Virus record (IMG/VR): IMGVR_UViG_3300031629_000065
Span: 1 to 25,985 of that record
Origin: a virus
Reading direction: 5' to 3' (one strand)
Length of the DNA: 25,985 nt
The notes beneath the pieces are model-generated. The model was not told the origin of the DNA, ran no database searches, and saw nothing but the letters and a program-made list of their open reading frames with translations. Position numbers and translations under genes: made by a program. Shown in pieces: positions 1,583-15,981 of this stretch (its first letter is position 1; each line of letters opens with the position of its first letter).

Positions 1583-2704
1583 ATGAGTCTTATAGATAAA
1601 GTTTTACTAGAATGGTCATACAGAACCGAAAAAGGATATCCAGACATTAATAGTGTTAAGGATATTGCTCTGTTTGAATCTATTTTTGGTTTTAATTTAA
1701 TAAACGAAGCAAAGCACCCATTTGAATACCTTTCTAAAGAAGCACAAGCACTCGGTAAAGAGTTAATACTAAAGCTTAACTTAGATGATGATGAGATAAT
1801 AGCTCATGCTAAAAATCGTATTATCGTATATACAGATAAGAAGAGATCAGATATTTTCGTAGCACTTCAAAATTTAGGTTATGAAAAAGACCAGATTACA
1901 GGTTCAAGTGGTGGAGGGTTTAGAACACCAGAGGGGATAGAAATCATACATAAGAATCAAACCTCAGTAGGAGATGCAGGCTTAGATAACGAGGCTATTG
2001 TAGTTGCTAAAATAAACGAATTAATTAACGTTCATGGAGGTCCTATAAATGTAACAATAAAACCATCTCAAGGAAATATAGTTTTCCAATATCCTAATGT
2101 TGAAAGTGCAGTATCTGTAGGAAGAGAAACCGGAGATAATAAAAAAGCAGACATTAGACTTTATAATAGCTCTGGAGAAATTCCTATATCAATAAAAAAG
2201 GACGGCCCATTTAGATGGTCATCAGCAATGACAACTCATAGGGACGTATTCGATAACGTACTATTACCGGGTATGGGAGAAGGCACAGAAGATTTAAAGC
2301 TAGTACAGGATGAAAATAATCCAAAGCTATTAAATATGATAAACCCTAAAAATAATAAACCTTACGGAAGTATATACGTACTAAATGCCCCAGGTATGGG
2401 TTACGATGCATTAGCATTCGGATCAGATAAAGCAGTAGTAGTCAAAAGAACATTCACAGAATTAGACTTTAAATTTGATAAAGACACATTAACTATTACA
2501 TCATCTAGAAACTACGAAAAAGATGAAGATTTCGATAAAGAAGATAAGCCAATTATTCGATTTGAAAGAAATGCATCAAAAGCAACAAATACAGAAGGAC
2601 ACGCAGGAAGAGGTATTACAATTAGAACCGTACCAATAAAAGGCTTTTTAAGTACTACTTCAAGAGCAAACGTTTTAAAACTAGATTATAAGGATCTAAA
2701 ATAA
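1583..2704 (+). CDS. Protein with possible PD-(D/E)XK-like core and capsid-targeting-like leader
   Basis: A 373-aa protein starting 4 nt after the previous stop and ending 3 nt before the terminase. The N-terminus MSLIDKVLLE ends L-L-E, and a second site (I-N-E then A) is at residues 40-42, so a prohead-protease-removable leader is possible. The middle holds a Gly-rich turn (GSSGGGF), then a helix with NEAIVVAKINELI, then D190 in KADIRLYN and a hydrophobic strand ISIKK ending at K205-K206. Helix Glu, Asp, then strand x-x-K is the order seen in PD-(D/E)XK nuclease folds, but Ser203 sits where the second acid is usual, so catalysis is uncertain. The downstream region (around residues 210-340) is unrecognised. 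Alternatives are a structural protein with a nuclease-like fold or an accessory packaging factor. Confidence 0.8.
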   Translation: MSLIDKVLLEWSYRTEKGYPDINSVKDIALFESIFGFNLINEAKHPFEYLSKEAQALGKELILKLNLDDDEIIAHAKNRIIVYTDKKRSDIFVALQNLGYEKDQITGSSGGGFRTPEGIEIIHKNQTSVGDAGLDNEAIVVAKINELINVHGGPINVTIKPSQGNIVFQYPNVESAVSVGRETGDNKKADIRLYNSSGEIPISIKKDGPFRWSSAMTTHRDVFDNVLLPGMGEGTEDLKLVQDENNPKLLNMINPKNNKPYGSIYVLNAPGMGYDALAFGSDKAVVVKRTFTELDFKFDKDTLTITSSRNYEKDEDFDKEDKPIIRFERNASKATNTEGHAGRGITIRTVPIKGFLSTTSRANVLKLDYKDLK

Positions 2705-2707
2705 GTT

Positions 2708-4282
2708 ATGGCACAAGACATAAAGAAGATAATAGCACAGGAATATATTAAGTGTGCGAAGGATCCGGAATACTTTATGAAAAAGTATTGCTACATCCAG
2801 CACCCCACTAGAGGACGTATATTGTTTAATTTATACCCTTTTCAAGGAAAAGTACTTCATTTATTTAGAGACAATCAATTTCTTATTGTTTTAAAATCTA
2901 GACAGCTAGGTATATCTACTTTAGCAGCTGGATATTCTCTATGGTTAATGTTATTTCATAAAGATAAAAACGTTTTAGCATTAGCTACTACACAAGCAAC
3001 AGCCCGTAACTTAGTTACAAAGACGATGTTTATGTACGACCAGCTACCTAAATGGTTAAAACTACCGGCATTAGAGAAAAACAAATTATCACTAAGATTA
3101 TCTAATGGGTCTAAAATTACAGCTAAATCATCTAATGCAGATGCAGCTCGTTCTGAAGCAGTATCGTTACTGTTAATTGATGAAGCAGCATTTATAGATA
3201 ATATTGACGAAACATTCGCAGCAGCACAACAAACATTAGCTACAGGTGGACAGTGTATGTCATTATCAACCCCTAACGGAATTGGTAACTGGTTTCACCA
3301 GACATGGGAAAAAGCAGAAACAGCAGAGAATTCTTTCGTAGCTGTAAGACTACCTTGGACAGTACATCCTGAAAGAGATCAGAAATGGAGAGATCAACAA
3401 GATGCTGATTTAGGACCTAGAATGGCAGGACAGGAATGTGACTGTGATTTCTTAGCTTCCGGAGATACAGTATTTGAACCAGACGACATGATGTTCATAG
3501 AACAGAGTTATATCAAAGACCCTATGGAAAGAAGAGGAGTTGACGGTAACTTATGGGTATGGGAAGGAGTTGACTATAATAAATCATATATGGTAGTAGC
3601 GGATGTTGCTAGAGGAGACTCTGCAGATTACTCTGCATTTCATGTATTTGATATAGAAACTTGTACTCAAGTAGCAGAATACAAAGGTAAACTTTCACCT
3701 AAAGACTACGGTAACGTACTAGTAGGGATTGCCTCAGAATATAACGACGCTCTGTTAGTTGTAGAAAATGCTAACATAGGTTGGGCAACCATCGAACAAG
3801 TGATGGAGAGAGAGTATAAGAACCTATATTACAGTTCTACAGGCAATATGGAGACAGTAGAATCTTATATGTCTAAGTACGAAAGAGATAAACTTGTACC
3901 TGGATTCACTATGTCGGTAAGAACTAGACCATTAGTTATTGCTAAGATGATCGAATACGTTAGGGAGAAGGCAGTTACTATACAGTCTAAGAGACTCGTA
4001 GCTGAAATGAGAGTATTCGTATGGAAGAACGGTAAACCTCAAGCACAGGTGAACTACAACGATGATTTACTTATAGCATGTGCAACTGCACTATATGTTA
4101 GAGATACGGCATTAAGAATGAGACAGCAGGGTATGGACTTAGCTAGAGCACAGTTATCCTCTTTTCATAACCTAAACTCTAAAAACCCAGCAATACTAAA
4201 AAATGTTGGTAATATGCAAAATAATCCGTATATTGTTAATAATGGACATACTGAAGAAGATATATCCTGGTTACTAAACTAA
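2708..4282 (+). CDS. Terminase large subunit (T4 gp17-like)
   Basis: This is the packaging motor ATPase and headful nuclease, which docks on the portal and drives DNA into the prohead. The ATPase domain has a Walker A-like segment SRQLGIST at residues 64-71, Walker B LLLIDEA at 154-160 with the catalytic Glu, and a coupling motif LSTPNGIG around 186-193. The RNase H-like nuclease domain shows Asp299 in VVADVARGDS, Glu353 in LLVVENANIG and the late acidic pair D452/D453 in NYNDDLLIA. Length is 524 aa, shorter than T4 gp17 (610 aa) but typical of marine T4-like relatives. It is followed directly by the portal. In T4 the tail sheath and tube genes sit between these two; they are absent here. No small terminase is recognisable in the window. 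Confidence 0.97.
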   Translation: MAQDIKKIIAQEYIKCAKDPEYFMKKYCYIQHPTRGRILFNLYPFQGKVLHLFRDNQFLIVLKSRQLGISTLAAGYSLWLMLFHKDKNVLALATTQATARNLVTKTMFMYDQLPKWLKLPALEKNKLSLRLSNGSKITAKSSNADAARSEAVSLLLIDEAAFIDNIDETFAAAQQTLATGGQCMSLSTPNGIGNWFHQTWEKAETAENSFVAVRLPWTVHPERDQKWRDQQDADLGPRMAGQECDCDFLASGDTVFEPDDMMFIEQSYIKDPMERRGVDGNLWVWEGVDYNKSYMVVADVARGDSADYSAFHVFDIETCTQVAEYKGKLSPKDYGNVLVGIASEYNDALLVVENANIGWATIEQVMEREYKNLYYSSTGNMETVESYMSKYERDKLVPGFTMSVRTRPLVIAKMIEYVREKAVTIQSKRLVAEMRVFVWKNGKPQAQVNYNDDLLIACATALYVRDTALRMRQQGMDLARAQLSSFHNLNSKNPAILKNVGNMQNNPYIVNNGHTEEDISWLLN

Positions 4283-9456: not shown

Positions 9457-10035
9457 ATGGCACAATTACTAGTAGATGTAACACCGTTTAAGTCCGTACT
9501 TAAAGAAGCGAAAGGGAGACCTGGAGTTTTTGAAGTAGAAGGAGTTATGCAAAGAGCAAAAGCACAGAACCAGAATGGTAGAGTATATGCTAAGCCAATT
9601 TTAGAAAGAGAATCTAAGAAATACACAGAAGAATTTGTTAAAAACGGGAATGCTTTTGGTGAATTAGATCATCCAGAATCTCCTGTAGTGTCATTAAAGA
9701 ATGCTTCTCACATAGTCAAAGACTTATGGTGGGATGGAGATGATTTGATGGGAAGAGTAGAACTACTTAATACTCCATCAGGAAATATAGTAAAAGAAAT
9801 AATTAAGGCTGGTCATACTATAGGGATATCCTCTAGAGGAACAGGATCAGTACAGCAGACAAACGAAGGTACTTTAGAAGTACAAAACGATTTTGAATTA
9901 GTTTGTTGGGATTTCGTATCTAATCCTTCTACACATGGTGCATTTATGAACCCAGTTGCATTATCAGAAAGTAAATTAAGACCTGCTAAATACAGCAACT
10001 TAAATTTAATAATTAACGATATATTGAGAGCATAA
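9457..10035 (+). CDS. Prohead core protease (T4 gp21-like, serine peptidase)
   Basis: This maturation protease digests the scaffold and trims capsid and internal proteins after (I/L)-x-E. The 192-aa sequence shows the family landmarks: NQNGRVYAKPIL near residue 38, catalytic His72 in GELDHPESP, and the serine of GISSRGTG (Ser125 or Ser126) on the conserved strand, followed by the ELVCWDFVSNPST block. T4 gp21 is 212 aa, so the length is normal. A possible self-cleavage site is L-K-E then A at residues 15-18. The gene sits ahead of scaffold and major capsid genes as in T4. Its TAA shares its last base with the ATG of the next gene (TAATG), which suggests coupled translation. Confidence 0.94.
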   Translation: MAQLLVDVTPFKSVLKEAKGRPGVFEVEGVMQRAKAQNQNGRVYAKPILERESKKYTEEFVKNGNAFGELDHPESPVVSLKNASHIVKDLWWDGDDLMGRVELLNTPSGNIVKEIIKAGHTIGISSRGTGSVQQTNEGTLEVQNDFELVCWDFVSNPSTHGAFMNPVALSESKLRPAKYSNLNLIINDILRA

Positions 10036-10844
10036 TGAAATTATCCAAAATAATCTTAGAGAATTACGATGATGATAGTTTATTTACTTTTGGCTATGAT
10101 CTACAAGACATAGGTAATGTAGAGAACTATTTAAAAGCGAATTACGAAAAAGGAATAGATTATGAACTACACATAGGTAGAGGAGATGACTTACCAAACG
10201 CTGTTACCCTACTTAATCCGGATATGGAAGATGATGTAGAACTTGGTAACTTATTAGACGCTGCAAAAGATACTGACGAATCAGATTATGAATCATATAG
10301 AAGAGAAGAAGATGATTACGCTAATAATGAATTAGACGAAGGTGAAAACTTTTCTGCTTTAGCTGCAGCAATGGCTAAAGAATTAGAAGGTAAAGAGGTT
10401 AAGCAAGATGATCAAGCTAACGAAGTAGTTGGAGTATTAGGAATACTTAGTTACGTACTATTATCCAATACAATAGCTAATATGCTTTCTTCTATGGCTA
10501 AAAAGATAGCTAAGAAACAAGGATGGCAGAAAACAGATGATATAGCAACAAAAATTTATGATTGGACGCATAAGAACGAAGCAGCTTTTATGTCACCAAT
10601 TAAAAGAGTGCTATCAGTAGTAATGATAGGACCAACTAAAAAATACATTGACCCAGTTACTAAAGGACTATATGCTTTATTTATATTCTTCTTAGCAGGT
10701 CAATACGGAGGTGATGTAATCGCTTCAATCAGAAAATCAGCATGGGGACAAACAGCATTCGCTTCAGTAAAATCTCTAGTTAAAGGAAAAGAAGTACATA
10801 CCCTAGTAAGAGACGTCTTAACAGACATCGGGCTATTAGGATAA
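10035..10844 (+). CDS. Acidic protein with two hydrophobic segments and capsid-targeting-like leader
   Basis: A 269-aa protein of unknown function. The N-terminus MKLSKIILE then N ends I-L-E, a predicted prohead-protease site. The same MKLS-x-II-x-E leader recurs on the 99-aa protein near 15.7 kb. Residues 55-130 are strongly acidic and probably disordered. Two hydrophobic segments stand out, around residues 131-151 (VVGVLGILSYVLLSNTIANM) and 211-232 (GLYALFIFFLAGQYGGDVIA), with a weaker one near 191-200. A basic helix follows the first. A membrane-active protein encoded between protease and scaffold, and tagged for the head, would fit an internal protein released at DNA ejection, but this is inference. 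Alternatives are a prohead membrane anchor (T4 proheads start on the membrane) or a holin-like product, the latter less likely from position. Confidence 0.8.
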   Translation: MKLSKIILENYDDDSLFTFGYDLQDIGNVENYLKANYEKGIDYELHIGRGDDLPNAVTLLNPDMEDDVELGNLLDAAKDTDESDYESYRREEDDYANNELDEGENFSALAAAMAKELEGKEVKQDDQANEVVGVLGILSYVLLSNTIANMLSSMAKKIAKKQGWQKTDDIATKIYDWTHKNEAAFMSPIKRVLSVVMIGPTKKYIDPVTKGLYALFIFFLAGQYGGDVIASIRKSAWGQTAFASVKSLVKGKEVHTLVRDVLTDIGLLG

Positions 10845-11029: not shown

Positions 11030-12106
11030 ATGGCAAACAAAGATTTATTCAAGCAAGCAATTGCTGAAGCAAAATCTGTACGTTCCGCTGCTATTGCTAA
11101 CGCGAAAGAAGCCCTAGAAGAGTCTTTGACTCCTCATTTAAAAGATATGTTAGCTGCAAAACTTCAAGAGATGGAAGACTCTTCCACAGAAGAAGCAGTA
11201 ACTGAATCTGATGAGGTAGAAGAAGGTAACTATGAGGCTAAAGACGAAGTAGTAAAAGAGGAAGATGCAGATACTGAAGTATCCGATGAGGATGCTCCAG
11301 AAGAAGAAGAATTAGACGGAGAAGAAGAAATCGCACCTATGGAGGATGAAGCAGAAGAAGCTGCTGACGAAATAGACGGAGATGAAGACTTATCTAAATT
11401 ATCAGTCGATCAATTTAAAGATCTTATTAGAGATGTAATAGCAACCGAAATGGGAGCTGAAGCAGGTCTAGAAGGAGAAGATGAATTAGGAGCTGATATG
11501 GATGCAGGAATGGAAGCAGAACCAGAAATGGGAGCTGAACCAGAAATGGCTCCAGAAGACGGAGAAGGTGAAGAAGAAATTGACTTAGACGAATTACTTG
11601 CAGAACTAGAAGGTTTAACTACCGAAGGTGAAGAAGCAGATAAAGACGATAAGCCAGTAGAAGAAAGTACAGAAAACGAAGTATCAGCAGAATCAGATTC
11701 TAAAGAGAAAAACGTTAATGATACTTTGAAGGAAGCTAAACAGAATAGTGCAGACCTTAAAGAAGCTCTTATAACAGTAGAGACTTTAAGACATGAACTA
11801 AACGAAGTTAACATTCTTAACTCTAAACTATTATACGTTAATAAAATTTTCAAAGCTAATTCATTAACTGAAAGCCAGAAAGTAAGCATAATCGCTGCAT
11901 TCGATAAAGCTGAAACAGTTAAAGAAGTAAAATTAGTTTTCGAAACAGTATCAGACAATATTGTCGCACCAGCTAAAACCAATCTTAAAGAACATAGAGG
12001 TATGGCTTCTAGAGCTACAGGAACTACAGCAAGTAATCCTCCAGTAATAGGACAAGTATCAGAAGCAGTATTAAGAATGCAGAAATTAGCAGGTATTATT
12101 AAATAA
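11030..12106 (+). CDS. Prohead scaffold/core protein (T4 gp22-like)
   Basis: This is the main internal scaffold, around which the major capsid protein assembles and which the prohead protease later destroys. The 358-aa protein begins with helices rich in Ala and Lys and with I-A-E then A at residues 11-14, a good protease site near the start, as in T4 gp22. Residues 40-225 are extremely acidic (long Glu/Asp runs with Met, Gly and Pro). The diagnostic part is the helical segment around residues 266-306, YVNKIFKANSLTESQKVSII followed by FDKAETVKEVKLVFETV, which matches the conserved YVNK..LTE.QK pattern of T4-like gp22. The C-terminus ends RMQKLAGIIK. T4 gp22 is 269 aa; the extra length is the acidic insert. 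It precedes the major capsid gene by 33 nt, the T4 order. Confidence 0.85.
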   Translation: MANKDLFKQAIAEAKSVRSAAIANAKEALEESLTPHLKDMLAAKLQEMEDSSTEEAVTESDEVEEGNYEAKDEVVKEEDADTEVSDEDAPEEEELDGEEEIAPMEDEAEEAADEIDGDEDLSKLSVDQFKDLIRDVIATEMGAEAGLEGEDELGADMDAGMEAEPEMGAEPEMAPEDGEGEEEIDLDELLAELEGLTTEGEEADKDDKPVEESTENEVSAESDSKEKNVNDTLKEAKQNSADLKEALITVETLRHELNEVNILNSKLLYVNKIFKANSLTESQKVSIIAAFDKAETVKEVKLVFETVSDNIVAPAKTNLKEHRGMASRATGTTASNPPVIGQVSEAVLRMQKLAGIIK

Positions 12107-12139: not shown

Positions 12140-13732
12140 ATGGAAATTAACAATCTTTTAGAAAGCTCAAACAGCTTTAAAAGCTTACAAGCTGACTCAG
12201 CAAAATTAGCTGAGAAGTGGAGTGCTTCAGGTTTGTTAGAAGGGATCACTGATGAAAGAGTAGCTACAAACATGGCTATGATTTTAGAGAACCAAGCTAA
12301 ACAAATCGTAGCAGAAGCAAATAACACAGGTGCATCTGGTACTTCAGCAGGCTTTACAGCAGGCGCAGGAGAACAATGGGCTGGTGTTGCATTACCTTTG
12401 GTAAGAAAAGTATTTGCTCAAATTAGTGCACAGGATTTCGTATCTGTACAACCAATGTCTTTACCTTCAGGTCTAGTATTTTATCTAGATTTCAAATATG
12501 GTACTGCCGCTAACGGACGTACTGATGGAGAAAATATGTACGGTAACGTTACTGACGGTGCTAACAAAATGGGTGTTGATGTAGATCCTTCAGGAGGATT
12601 ATACGGAGCAGGTCAATTTGGTTACACTATCAACGGTGTATCTGGAACTGTAGCAGCAGCTGCAGTAGGAGCTGCAAAGCTTAAAGATGTAGGATTCGAT
12701 GCTGGTATTACATTAGCTGAATACGAAACTGTATCTATCGCTTTATCTTCTATTCCTAACTATGACGTAGAAGGAGTTCGTGCATTCGGATTAACTTCTG
12801 GTTCAGTAACAATCAACAAGCAATTCACTAAAATCTCAGGATCTAACTTAGTATTCGTACAAACAGTAGGAGCAGGAGATATTACTGATGCAGATAACGT
12901 TCAAGTAACTTATCACAAACAACCAACAGACAACACAAGAGGCGATTTTGAAGCTGACGGTGGTGTAGCAGTTGATACTTCTATTTCTATTCCAGAAATC
13001 GATGTTCAATTACAATCTGAGGCAATTGTTGCTAAGACTAGAAAGTTAAAAGCACAATGGACTCCAGAATTTGCTCAAGATCTTAACGCATACCATTCAA
13101 TTGATGCAGAAGCTGAATTAACTTCTTTGTTATCTGAATACATCTCTATGGAGATTGATTTAGAAATCTTAGATATGTTGATCAAAGGCGCTACAACAAC
13201 TGAAAAATGGTCTGCAGAGAACAACAAAGTCTTTAAAGGCGGTGCTTGGTCTTCAGCAACTTCAGATTTTTACAATACTCAAGGACAATGGTTCCAAACA
13301 TTAGGAACTAAAGTACAGAAAGTATCTAACAAGATTCACCAAAAGACCTTAAGAGGTGGTGCAAACTTCGTAGTATGTTCTCCTTCAGTAGCAACAATCT
13401 TAGAATCAATTCCAGGATATGCTGCACAAACTGACGGTAACCAAGAGAAATTTGCAATGGGTGTACAGAAAATTGGTAGCTTAGCTAACCGTTTCCAAGT
13501 TTACAAGAATCCTTATATGACTGAGAACATTATGTTGTTAGGTTACAGAGGTGGACAGTTCTTAGAAGCTGGTGCAGTATATGCTCCTTATGTACCATTA
13601 ATGATGACTCCAATGGTATACGATCCAGAAACCTTCACTCCAAGAAAAGGTTTAATGACTCGTTATGCTAAGAAAATGATCAGACCAGAATTTTATGGTA
13701 AGATCTATATTTCTGACTTAGAGTTAGTATAG
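12140..13732 (+). CDS. Major capsid protein (T4 gp23-like, HK97 fold)
   Basis: This is the main shell protein of the head. The 530-aa length matches T4 gp23 (521 aa). The N-terminal pro-region of about 59 residues (MEINNLLESSNSF onward) should be removed by the prohead protease. The best site is V-A-E then A-N-N at residues 57-62, aligned with the known T4 cleavage before its residue 66. The mature part begins with a Gly/Ser/Thr-rich arm and continues with WAGVALPLVRKVFAQISAQD and VSVQPMSLPSGLVFYLDF, signature blocks of gp23. A middle region (around residues 165-285) has an insertion-domain-like character. The C-terminal half holds LKAQWTPEFAQDL, TLRGGANFVVCSP and PRKGLMTRYAKKM. It is closed by a strong terminator 26 nt downstream, as expected for a highly expressed gene. 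Confidence 0.96.
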   Translation: MEINNLLESSNSFKSLQADSAKLAEKWSASGLLEGITDERVATNMAMILENQAKQIVAEANNTGASGTSAGFTAGAGEQWAGVALPLVRKVFAQISAQDFVSVQPMSLPSGLVFYLDFKYGTAANGRTDGENMYGNVTDGANKMGVDVDPSGGLYGAGQFGYTINGVSGTVAAAAVGAAKLKDVGFDAGITLAEYETVSIALSSIPNYDVEGVRAFGLTSGSVTINKQFTKISGSNLVFVQTVGAGDITDADNVQVTYHKQPTDNTRGDFEADGGVAVDTSISIPEIDVQLQSEAIVAKTRKLKAQWTPEFAQDLNAYHSIDAEAELTSLLSEYISMEIDLEILDMLIKGATTTEKWSAENNKVFKGGAWSSATSDFYNTQGQWFQTLGTKVQKVSNKIHQKTLRGGANFVVCSPSVATILESIPGYAAQTDGNQEKFAMGVQKIGSLANRFQVYKNPYMTENIMLLGYRGGQFLEAGAVYAPYVPLMMTPMVYDPETFTPRKGLMTRYAKKMIRPEFYGKIYISDLELV

Positions 13733-14533: not shown

Positions 14534-15682
14534 ATGGCAAATGTAACTATATGGAACGGAAGTTCTACCTTTGCACCAGGTAATACTCCATTCGGGTTTT
14601 ACGATGCAGACAGCTCTTTTCAACAAGATGCTGATAAAGTTGCTAAATTCTGTGCTACCAGATTAGGGTACCCTCTAATGGATGTAGAATTGAATAACAA
14701 CTCTTTTTATGCATGTTTTGAAGAAGCTATAACTACATATGGTAATGAAGTATTTCAATACAATATAAGAGAGAATTATTTAGGTTTAGAAGGCTCTTCT
14801 ACTGGTAGTAGAGGTTCTTTGAACAACCAAGTAATTGATCCAACCATAAGTAGAATTATACAAATATCTCAACACTACGGAACAGAAGCTGGAGTAGGTG
14901 GAAACGTAACTAAACATACTGGTTCAATAACGATCAATAGAAATGTACAAAATTATGATTTTGATGCATGGTCAACAGAAAATAACATTTCAGGAAAGAT
15001 TGAAGTAAGAAAAATCTTTTATGAAGCTGCACCAGCGATACAAAGGTATTTTGACCCTTATGCTGGAACAGGTACAGGTGTACAGTCTTTAATGGGAGCA
15101 TTTGACTTTGGAAAATTTAGTCCTGGAGTTAACTTTTTATTAATGCCAACATCTTATGATGTACTAAAGACACAAGCAATTGAATTTAATGATCAAATTA
15201 GAAAGTCCGCTTTTTCGTTTGAAATGACAAATAATAAATTAAAGTTATTCCCAATACCTACTGCATCAGGAAGTTTACATTTTGAGTATTATAAGATGGA
15301 AGACAAAGCATCAACTAACTTTAACTCTAACAATTCAGTAATTACAAATGTTTCTGAAGTACCTTATGAAAATATACAGTACAAACAAACTAATAGTGTC
15401 GGTAGACAGTGGATTTTCCAATATACTTTAGCATTAGCAAAAGAACTATTAGGATATATCAGAGGGAAGTATGCAACAGTACCAGTACCGGGATCAGAAG
15501 CAACTCTTAATCAAGCTGACCTGCTTGCAGATGCAAGAAGTGAAAAAGGAGCTTTATTATTAAGTTTAAGAGAGCTATTAGATATGACATCTAGAAGTAA
15601 ACAATTAGAAGCACAGGCTAAAGAATCTGAAGATGTAGAGAACATTTTAAAGTCTGTACCAATGGTAATATACGTAGGTTAA
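14534..15682 (+). CDS. Probable neck protein (T4 gp13-like)
   Basis: A 382-aa structural protein, tentatively the head-neck connector that closes the portal after packaging (gp13 role). The start MANVTIWNGSSTFAPGNTPFGFYDAD leads into a helical part with DADKVAKFCATRLGYPLMDV and FYACFEEAITTYGNEVFQYN. A beta-rich middle (residues 130-270) follows, then a helical C-terminus with RQWIFQYTLALAKELLGYIR and a Lys/Glu-rich helix ending SVPMVIYVG. The position behind capsid and phoH and before gp14- and gp15-like genes fits the T4 neck set 13-14-15, but T4 gp13 (309 aa) is not recognisable in detail. The assignment rests on order and on memory of similar uncultured-phage proteins. The last base of its TAA is the first base of the next ATG. 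Confidence 0.6.
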   Translation: MANVTIWNGSSTFAPGNTPFGFYDADSSFQQDADKVAKFCATRLGYPLMDVELNNNSFYACFEEAITTYGNEVFQYNIRENYLGLEGSSTGSRGSLNNQVIDPTISRIIQISQHYGTEAGVGGNVTKHTGSITINRNVQNYDFDAWSTENNISGKIEVRKIFYEAAPAIQRYFDPYAGTGTGVQSLMGAFDFGKFSPGVNFLLMPTSYDVLKTQAIEFNDQIRKSAFSFEMTNNKLKLFPIPTASGSLHFEYYKMEDKASTNFNSNNSVITNVSEVPYENIQYKQTNSVGRQWIFQYTLALAKELLGYIRGKYATVPVPGSEATLNQADLLADARSEKGALLLSLRELLDMTSRSKQLEAQAKESEDVENILKSVPMVIYVG

Positions 15683-15981
15683 TGAAACTATCACAAATTA
15701 TATCTGAAATTACATTCAGAACATTCGAAGCAATGATTAAAGTTACCTTTGGTGATGAAGGTCCTAGCAAATATGATGATGCTATTAGAGCATTACCTGG
15801 TGTAACAACAGTTACATTAGCAAGTCAAGACCAAGAATCATTAGTTGCTACATATAAAGTAAAACTTATAAGTCAAAAAGAAGGAACTGAAGCATATGAA
15901 GCTTTTAAAAAAAATGCCATGACTAAATACAGTAATATAGTTAGTATGGAAATAGGAACAGAAACAATAGAAGAGAAATAA
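15682..15981 (+). CDS. 99-aa ferredoxin-fold-like protein with capsid-targeting-like leader
   Basis: A small protein of unknown function between neck genes. The first nine residues, MKLSQIISE, end I-S-E and closely match the leader of the membrane-segment protein at 10035 (MKLSKIILE), although the rest is unrelated. After the leader the pattern is strand (FEAMIKVTFG), helix (PSKYDDAIRALPG), strand (VTTVTLAS), strand (LVATYKVKLIS), helix (AYEAFKKNAMTK), strand (IVSMEIG). This is a beta-alpha-beta-beta-alpha-beta order like ferredoxin/ACT-type folds. TAATG overlap on the left and direct abutment on the right tie it to the neck operon. It could be a head-packaged internal protein or a small neck accessory; neither is shown. 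Confidence 0.75.
   Translation: MKLSQIISEITFRTFEAMIKVTFGDEGPSKYDDAIRALPGVTTVTLASQDQESLVATYKVKLISQKEGTEAYEAFKKNAMTKYSNIVSMEIGTETIEEK

Follow-up and report, generated by a model that had tools for sequence, protein, structure and literature searches.

Which protein does a marine T4-like bacterial virus encode immediately before its terminase gene, and does this protein travel in the virus head? At this place the stretch analysed here (the window, 25,985 nucleotides) has an ORF whose product of 373 aa, with the N-terminus MSLIDKVLLE, had been described in an initial annotation as a possible nuclease-fold protein tagged for the head. We found that it is probably a nuclease resembling restriction enzymes, preceded by a constant start peptide (features are collected in the table). 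The reading we prefer, and consider reasonably likely, is that of a virion cargo which is targeted to the prohead, cleaved from its leader, injected and able to cut DNA, and whose payload is swapped as a cassette.

Features of the window, with positions counted from its first nucleotide
Feature	Positions	Strand	Observation
Whole gene: leader, accessory domain and PD-(D/E)XK-like domain	1583..2704	+	373 aa; phrog_12709
Constant N-terminal leader, residues 1-42 (~41 residues), predicted prohead-targeting propeptide	1583..1708	+	Common to unrelated payloads
LLE, residues 8-10, first putative prohead-protease motif	1604..1612	+	E10 in 57/58 distinct proteins, E11 in the other
LFE, residues 30-32, second putative motif	1670..1678	+	E32 in 55/58 distinct proteins, E33 in one more
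INE, residues 40-42, third putative motif, leader/payload junction	1700..1708	+	[LIV]xE with E at 38-46 in 58/58
Accessory domain, residues ~48-129	1724..1969	+	Model; profile similarity to payload family 4
PD-(D/E)XK-like nuclease domain, residues ~130-352	1970..2638	+	Alignment, model, structural matches
E137, helix glutamate	1991..1993	+	Invariant 35/35
D190	2150..2152	+	Invariant 35/35
S203-I204-K205, (D/E)xK position	2189..2197	+	S and K invariant 35/35
Terminase large subunit, 3 nt downstream of the gene, locus anchor	2708..4282	+	phrog_2 E 5.2e-48; Pfam PF03237 E 1.6e-11
gp21-type head maturation protease, predicted leader processor	9457..10035	+	phrog_207 E 1.9e-53

The leader recurs at the same locus on other proteins. 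Its first 44 residues matched gene 193 of Flavobacterium phage immuto, which sits three genes before the terminase and has a different C-terminus. A leader scan matched 248 stretches, 145 of which encode relatives; among the best 80 of these 145, the gene ended 15 nt or less from the terminase gene at 77 loci, and of the other three, two had distances of 646 and 1,248 nt and one was on a truncated contig. The C-terminal parts of 87 proteins (79 of the 80 leader loci, with the truncated L102 dropped, six from earlier scans and two phage records) fell into 11 groups, ten with a D...(S/E)xK motif and one acidic and without it. Nine payload groups have D..SxK (in family 2 it was found by eye, at a spacing exceeding the pattern used for the other groups), and only immuto, whose payload family is known from one sequence, has the canonical D..ExK. 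What the initial annotation had noticed as an LLE motif is part of a conserved block of about 41 residues joined to unrelated C-termini. In leaderless hhalign comparisons with reversed controls, 4 of 45 payload-family pairs stood clear, two over the nuclease (families 0-8 and 1-2; the window belongs to family 0) and two over the accessory domain (0-4 and 1-8); the nuclease part of family 4, unlike its accessory domain, was not detectably similar to that of the window. The other 41 pairs were indistinct from the reversed controls, so that shared ancestry of all payload families does not follow from sequence. The leaderless comparison superseded an hhalign run on leader-containing alignments, whose scores reflected the leader. 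In an uncultured 484-kb jumbo phage (L038:4989-6065) this leader is joined to an acidic protein of low complexity that lacks a nuclease motif.

We found that the leader peptide itself is selected. Between payload clusters mean pS was 0.48 and pN 0.098, and the resulting pN/pS of 0.20 (44 distinct DNA sequences from 79 loci, 814 pairs) indicates purifying selection at the protein level. The T4 targeting sequence has hydrophobic residues at positions 4, 7 and 8; the window leader is likewise a short N-terminus with hydrophobic residues at these positions (one T at position 4 among the 44 sequences) and Glu at position 10, and a gp21-type protease is encoded in the same phage. The LLE reported by the initial annotation proved to be a [LIV]xE motif at residues 8-10 that is kept in all 44 distinct leader DNA sequences. 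At the leader/payload junction (residues 38-46) the motif was present in all 58 distinct proteins, compared with 11.6% of payload windows of the same size. The leaders are related and these counts are thus not independent; all 39 distinct junction 11-mers (the jumbo phage left out) keep [LIV]xE, against a permutation mean of 9.2 and a maximum of 19 in 2,000 runs. Since the junction sequences vary while the motif stays, inheritance alone is a poor explanation of the motif counts. E10 was absent from leader variants L168, L207, L210, L211 and L216, and the junction Glu was kept wherever the junction was read.

Family-3 payloads, examined as the best 80 of 283 relatives, provided a second view of this junction. 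They mostly begin A-[YF]-x-[FI]-P or similar and follow a variety of leaders, almost all with a final xE at the same junction (..NLNE, ..DLTE, MIKLIDILYE, MFTFKGYLAE, MKTFKQFFRE and ..VLDE); ..LLLRE and ..LRSE precede the payload start in fusion proteins, and in leaderless homologues the protein begins at M-AYDFIP. In family-0 relatives from other marine viral contigs the leaders are short, for instance MAITFAQFINEA. Leader conservation, junction motifs and leader exchange are indirect evidence that the head tag proposed by the initial annotation is probably right. In a near-identical 139-kb contig, early [LIV]xE occurred in 9 of 13 head-region ORFs and in 25 of 148 elsewhere (p 1.2e-4), with head-region borders of our choosing, unverified start codons and 3 of 164 ORFs left out (one encoded on the opposite strand, the rest lying between the two segments).

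Several other genes near these loci deserve mention. In or near the head region of the window, early [LIV]xE or FLTE leaders were seen at 1105-1578, 10035-10844, 11030-12106, 12140-13732 and 15682-15981. Upstream of the payload in L078, L081 and L091, several small consecutive genes begin with M.(N/D)F(D/N)LRKFL.E; they represent a further leader family, whose tails are diverse. Two genes upstream of the window payload lies a gene cut by the window start (1-1133). By eye, the C-terminal domain that it encodes is similar to the N-terminal region of proteins at several of the loci L219-L240; there a family-3 payload is fused to that protein, as if attached straight to a core protein.

The same payloads are also found without the leader. 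Relatives of families 0, 1, 3, 7 and 8 occur leaderless in cyanophages, KVP40-like phages and some other phages and, where read, mostly in the replication region, so head delivery is not essential to the payload role. Eight cyanophages were read, and in each a slot close to gp41 and MazG carries a leaderless payload: family 0 in S-8S55; family 1 in Syn1, S-CAM22 and MED4-213; family 3 in S-RSM4 and SynMITS9220M01; family 7 in S-RIM2; and family 8 in S-CAM9. That the same families rotate through this slot points to a single common role inside infected cells, to which packaging, if real, would be an added feature. The next gene encodes a KWDGAP-motif protein in seven of the eight, with a cytidyltransferase instead in SynMITS9220M01; KWDGAP may be a ligase/nucleotidyltransferase-like motif, and a nuclease-ligase pair is possible. 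A KWDGAP protein after the payload gene was noted at L172, L173, L174, L175, L176, L178, L035 and L039 (seven cyanophages and one Vibrio phage). Leaderless homologues near the gp41 helicase and replication genes, together with the 3-nt distance of the window gene from the terminase gene, would fit an intracellular late- or middle-gene nuclease that is not packaged and either breaks down DNA of the host or of rivals or acts on replicating DNA, its leader serving only as a region open to homologous recombination or as a dock to another assembly factor, for example the terminase or portal. We regard this as unlikely, because the leader is constrained as a peptide, the junction [LIV]xE is kept though its position and neighbours change, the family-3 payload has different leaders with the same xE end, and some lineages have the gene 0.6-1.4 kb from the terminase, still with its leader or else fused to another protein.

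As to the payload of the window, profile search placed the protein (P0001) in phrog_12709, a family of unknown function (E 2.5e-16), which five phage homologues also matched (E 1.8e-25 to 8.4e-186). Pfam (E <= 1) and NCBIfam gave no match, PDB sequence searches gave nothing useful, and ten sister-payload proteins had only sub-threshold Pfam matches. Relatives in viral contigs were found at 10 loci in one scan and at 24 in a second scan with alignment, the two sets overlapping. By tblastn, 71 phage records matched at E <= 0.01: 67 from Vibrio, Stenotrophomonas and Xanthomonas phages, at about 25-31% identity over the payload among the matches listed, and four from Flavobacterium phages, in which only the leader was matched. 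A Synechococcus phage gave a weaker match (E 0.04); its protein is also a member of phrog_12709. In GTDB genomes, one core motif gave 64 pattern matches and no relative, and a plasmid search with the family-1 payload had no match. Among ten proteins scanned with PADLOC, type II restriction-enzyme models matched those of family 6 (E 4.8e-8) and family 8 (E 1.7e-4), and the other eight, the window protein included, had no restriction-enzyme match. In a literature search of titles and abstract openings, mostly outside subscription journals, this locus was not described among the matches listed.

In an alignment of 35 sequences (the window protein and viral contigs, some at 23-28% identity), 12 columns were invariant: G133, E137, K188, D190, S203, K205, W212, S214, F279, G280, D282 and G344. 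Helix Glu, strand Asp and catalytic Lys thus follow in the order of a PD-(D/E)XK core, with Ser replacing the second acid in all 35, so that the helix Glu, D190 and S203-I-K205 noticed in the initial annotation go beyond chance resemblance. D, S and K were also invariant in families 1, 2, 4, 6, 7 and 8 (2 to 10 sequences each) and, even with leaderless phage homologues at about 27-33% identity, in families 1, 3, 7 and 8; the alignments of families 2, 4 and 6 are less diverse, and family 5 consists of two near-identical proteins only. In family 3, E145, D218, S231 and K233 were invariant in 33 of 33 sequences. The initial annotation had doubted activity on account of the Ser, a doubt that the alignments do not bear out: S-x-K is invariant in the window family and recurs in eight other payload families, and the site looks like a maintained active-site variant rather than decay. 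Since the second acid varies within the superfamily (PMC4652773), Ser makes the site less canonical and leaves superfamily membership unaffected. Passages of the same BsaWI paper describe active enzymes with a moved or altered second acid and give the CCGG family (NgoMIV, Cfr10I, BsaWI) as PDX21-53KX12-13E, with the acid shifted past the Lys. We judged a CCGG-type compensating acid unlikely for the window protein, which has T218 and H219 at those places; a search for a compensating acidic residue, a check suggested by the initial annotation, yielded no clear one, the acids invariant in all 35 being E137, D190 and D282.

The AlphaFold2 model of the window protein (mean pLDDT 86.9) has two leader helices (3-14 and 25-35), followed in the payload by helix 135-151, strands 155-161, 168-173/175-178, 191-195 and 198-205, and helix 220-230. 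The first of these payload helices starts beside E137, D190 abuts strand 191-195 and K205 ends strand 198-205; judged by these hairpin positions, D190 and K205 are probably not far apart. The element order and the top Foldseek rows point to an alpha-beta-beta-beta-alpha-beta core: against PDB no row reached E <= 0.001 (best E 0.081), and the first eleven were Holliday-junction resolvases of PD-(D/E)XK fold. HinP1I was the best nuclease match by VIA-align, at a Z of 6.1 over 158 residues, which is below 8 and lies among unrelated rows. In BFVD, a set of predicted viral structures, 11 matches had E <= 0.001, phage homologues included. Two of the matches there were chlorella-virus endonucleases with good E-values and modest superposition: Nt.CviQII (E 9.0e-8, TM by query 0.34, rmsd 8.5) and CviJI (E 2.2e-7, prob 1.00, TM 0.43/0.44, rmsd 15.2 over 359 columns). 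In these model comparisons CviJI and Nt.CviQII are the best characterised matches, with a weak one to HinP1I. Together with the invariant E-D-SxK, the predicted core and the BFVD matches support the nuclease fold suggested initially.

A model of family 3 (pLDDT 87.4, built with 33 sequences) has the layout of the window model, with two leader helices, accessory domain and nuclease, D218 before a strand and S231 and K233 in the next. The two families have no detectable sequence similarity (hhalign P 0.21) and the same element order in both models. The best solved matches of the family-3 model were HinP1I (Z 9.3, 202 residues) and MspI (Z 7.5, 200 residues), followed by resolvases and restriction enzymes; its three BFVD rows at E <= 0.001 were phage or viral proteins without described function, with no CviJI/Nt.CviQII-type enzyme among them. 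The accessory domain (window residues 48-129) perhaps has a role in DNA reading. Nucleotidyltransferase-like PDB rows for this domain (Z up to 6.7) were considered and not used.

The Ser found in nine payload families and the T218 and H219 at the CCGG-family place could also mark loss of catalysis, the protein being a dead PD-(D/E)XK relative that acts as a DNA-binding internal protein in DNA condensation, end protection or inhibition of host restriction, like T4 IPI*, which passages of PMC3012670 present as an inhibitor and not a nuclease. We consider this quite improbable: invariance of all four residues, E, D, S and K, across diverse sets of 35 and 33 sequences would be unexpected for a dead site, immuto has canonical ExK at the same locus, families 6 and 8 match restriction-enzyme models, and active enzymes with a changed second acid are described in the BsaWI paper passages.

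One pair of loci indicated how payloads may be replaced. Upstream of their genes, L060 (family 7) and L078 (family 2) match over 400 of 400 nt, and downstream they are 99.46% identical across 1.3 kb; the genes themselves share their first 112 nt exactly, are unrelated from codon 38, and become similar again at the stop codon. These sequences show a cassette swap, and the best reading is that phages trade the payload half by recombination at the stop codon and within the constant leader. An alternative, a free-standing endonuclease of homing or exclusion type that spreads its cassette by cutting an empty or alternative allele, would fit the sharp borders, the rapid exchange at one site and the presence of I-Ssp6803I (a homing endonuclease by PDB title) among weak Foldseek rows, but we judged such a role of the window gene very unlikely, because eight of eight long contigs (~99-177 kb) have exactly one leader each, payloads replace one another behind the same leader and do not insert, and the leader and junction motif are kept throughout.

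In the virion-cargo reading that we prefer, the leader of about 41 residues would take the protein into the prohead core, where the gp21-type protease would cut after the conserved [LIV]xE sites, the last at the junction. The freed restriction-endonuclease-like nuclease would then leave the head with the phage DNA and, once inside the next cell infected, cut DNA there; the likeliest target is the host chromosome, with rival phage or mobile DNA as the alternative. Because the same tag in related viruses carries at least eight other swapped nuclease-like payloads, these viruses probably inject ready-made DNA-cutting enzymes. QueC, involved in 7-deazaguanine synthesis, was detected in 9 of 10 related phage records searched (8 above cut-off), and a protective DNA modification is therefore possible; the transglycosylase PF01702 was detected in none of the ten phages by a search that also misses Moby, whose record annotates one. 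In contig G001 (L124-L130; e.g. 51571-52804 and 58845-59660) QueC was found by profile and two ORFs are QueE- and QueD-like by eye; 7-deazaguanine DNA modification is possible in this phage. We tentatively offer a wider picture, which we hold to be possible without leaning towards it, of restriction turned outward: marine T4-like phages would carry polymorphic, virion-borne, sequence- or modification-specific endonucleases behind one interchangeable propeptide, with their own genome protected by modification, cassettes traded between lineages and families rotating in cyanophages, in an arms race with host or rival-phage DNA.

If the cargo reading is true, these marine phages bring restriction-like enzymes, made in advance, into the cell together with their genome, much like giant algal viruses, and exchange them in the manner of toxin cassettes. 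A common role that can be tested would then fall to five PHROG families whose function is unknown (12709, 1462, 8438, 2496 and 13937), the leader would be available as a portable head-targeting tag, and the payloads would supply new endonucleases. Besides, which proteins T4-like phages inject, and why they vary, would become approachable from sequence.

Several known systems resemble this locus in part. Among solved structures, HinP1I and MspI are the best matches of the family-3 payload, and HinP1I the best nuclease match of the window protein; they differ in the absence of a leader, and sequence identity is about 10%. To our knowledge, both enzymes are without a canonical second acid. Polyvalent proteins of phages and plasmids are predicted, in passages of PMC5512222, to be packaged or transferred and injected in host conflicts, and thus share predicted packaging and injection with the window protein; in contrast, they have 2 to 15 domains, and those passages describe no constant propeptide with a swapped single nuclease. 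MuF polymorphic toxins similarly combine a constant phage N-terminal domain with exchangeable C-terminal toxins, some of them predicted nucleases (sections of PMC5576092). However, the MuF domain is encoded beside the portal in temperate phages, with a small ORF as candidate immunity gene, whereas the window locus has a gp21-type propeptide in T4-like phages, neither an immunity gene nor a cognate methylase gene was noticed there, its protein has no Pfam match at E <= 1, MuF included, and its gene precedes the terminase. The closest characterised structural matches in the model comparison, CviJI and Nt.CviQII, link the window protein to chloroviruses, which differ in being algal viruses whose enzyme genes adjoin methylases. 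We know of no propeptide or prohead protease for the chlorovirus enzymes. It has been reported for the group, not for CviJI itself, that the restriction enzymes are packaged without their methylases and presumably start host DNA breakdown within 5 min (passages of PMC7019647). Finally, T4 internal proteins have propeptides 10-19 residues long, in which residues 4 and 7 serve targeting and residues 8 and 10 processing, and Asp at position 10 blocks processing and not targeting, according to sections of PMC9026906. The window leader, at about 41 residues with three motifs, is longer, and its payload is a restriction-like nuclease encoded next to the terminase rather than a small inhibitor such as IPI*. 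EcoRI and staphylococcal nuclease have been loaded into T4 heads via IPIII or its CTS (passages of PMC9026906 and PMC3012670), and, according to parts of PMC3012670, a conserved targeting sequence is all that the internal proteins of T-even phages have in common. As in IPI, IPII and IPIII of T4, the window locus combines a conserved N-terminal signal with a variable payload.
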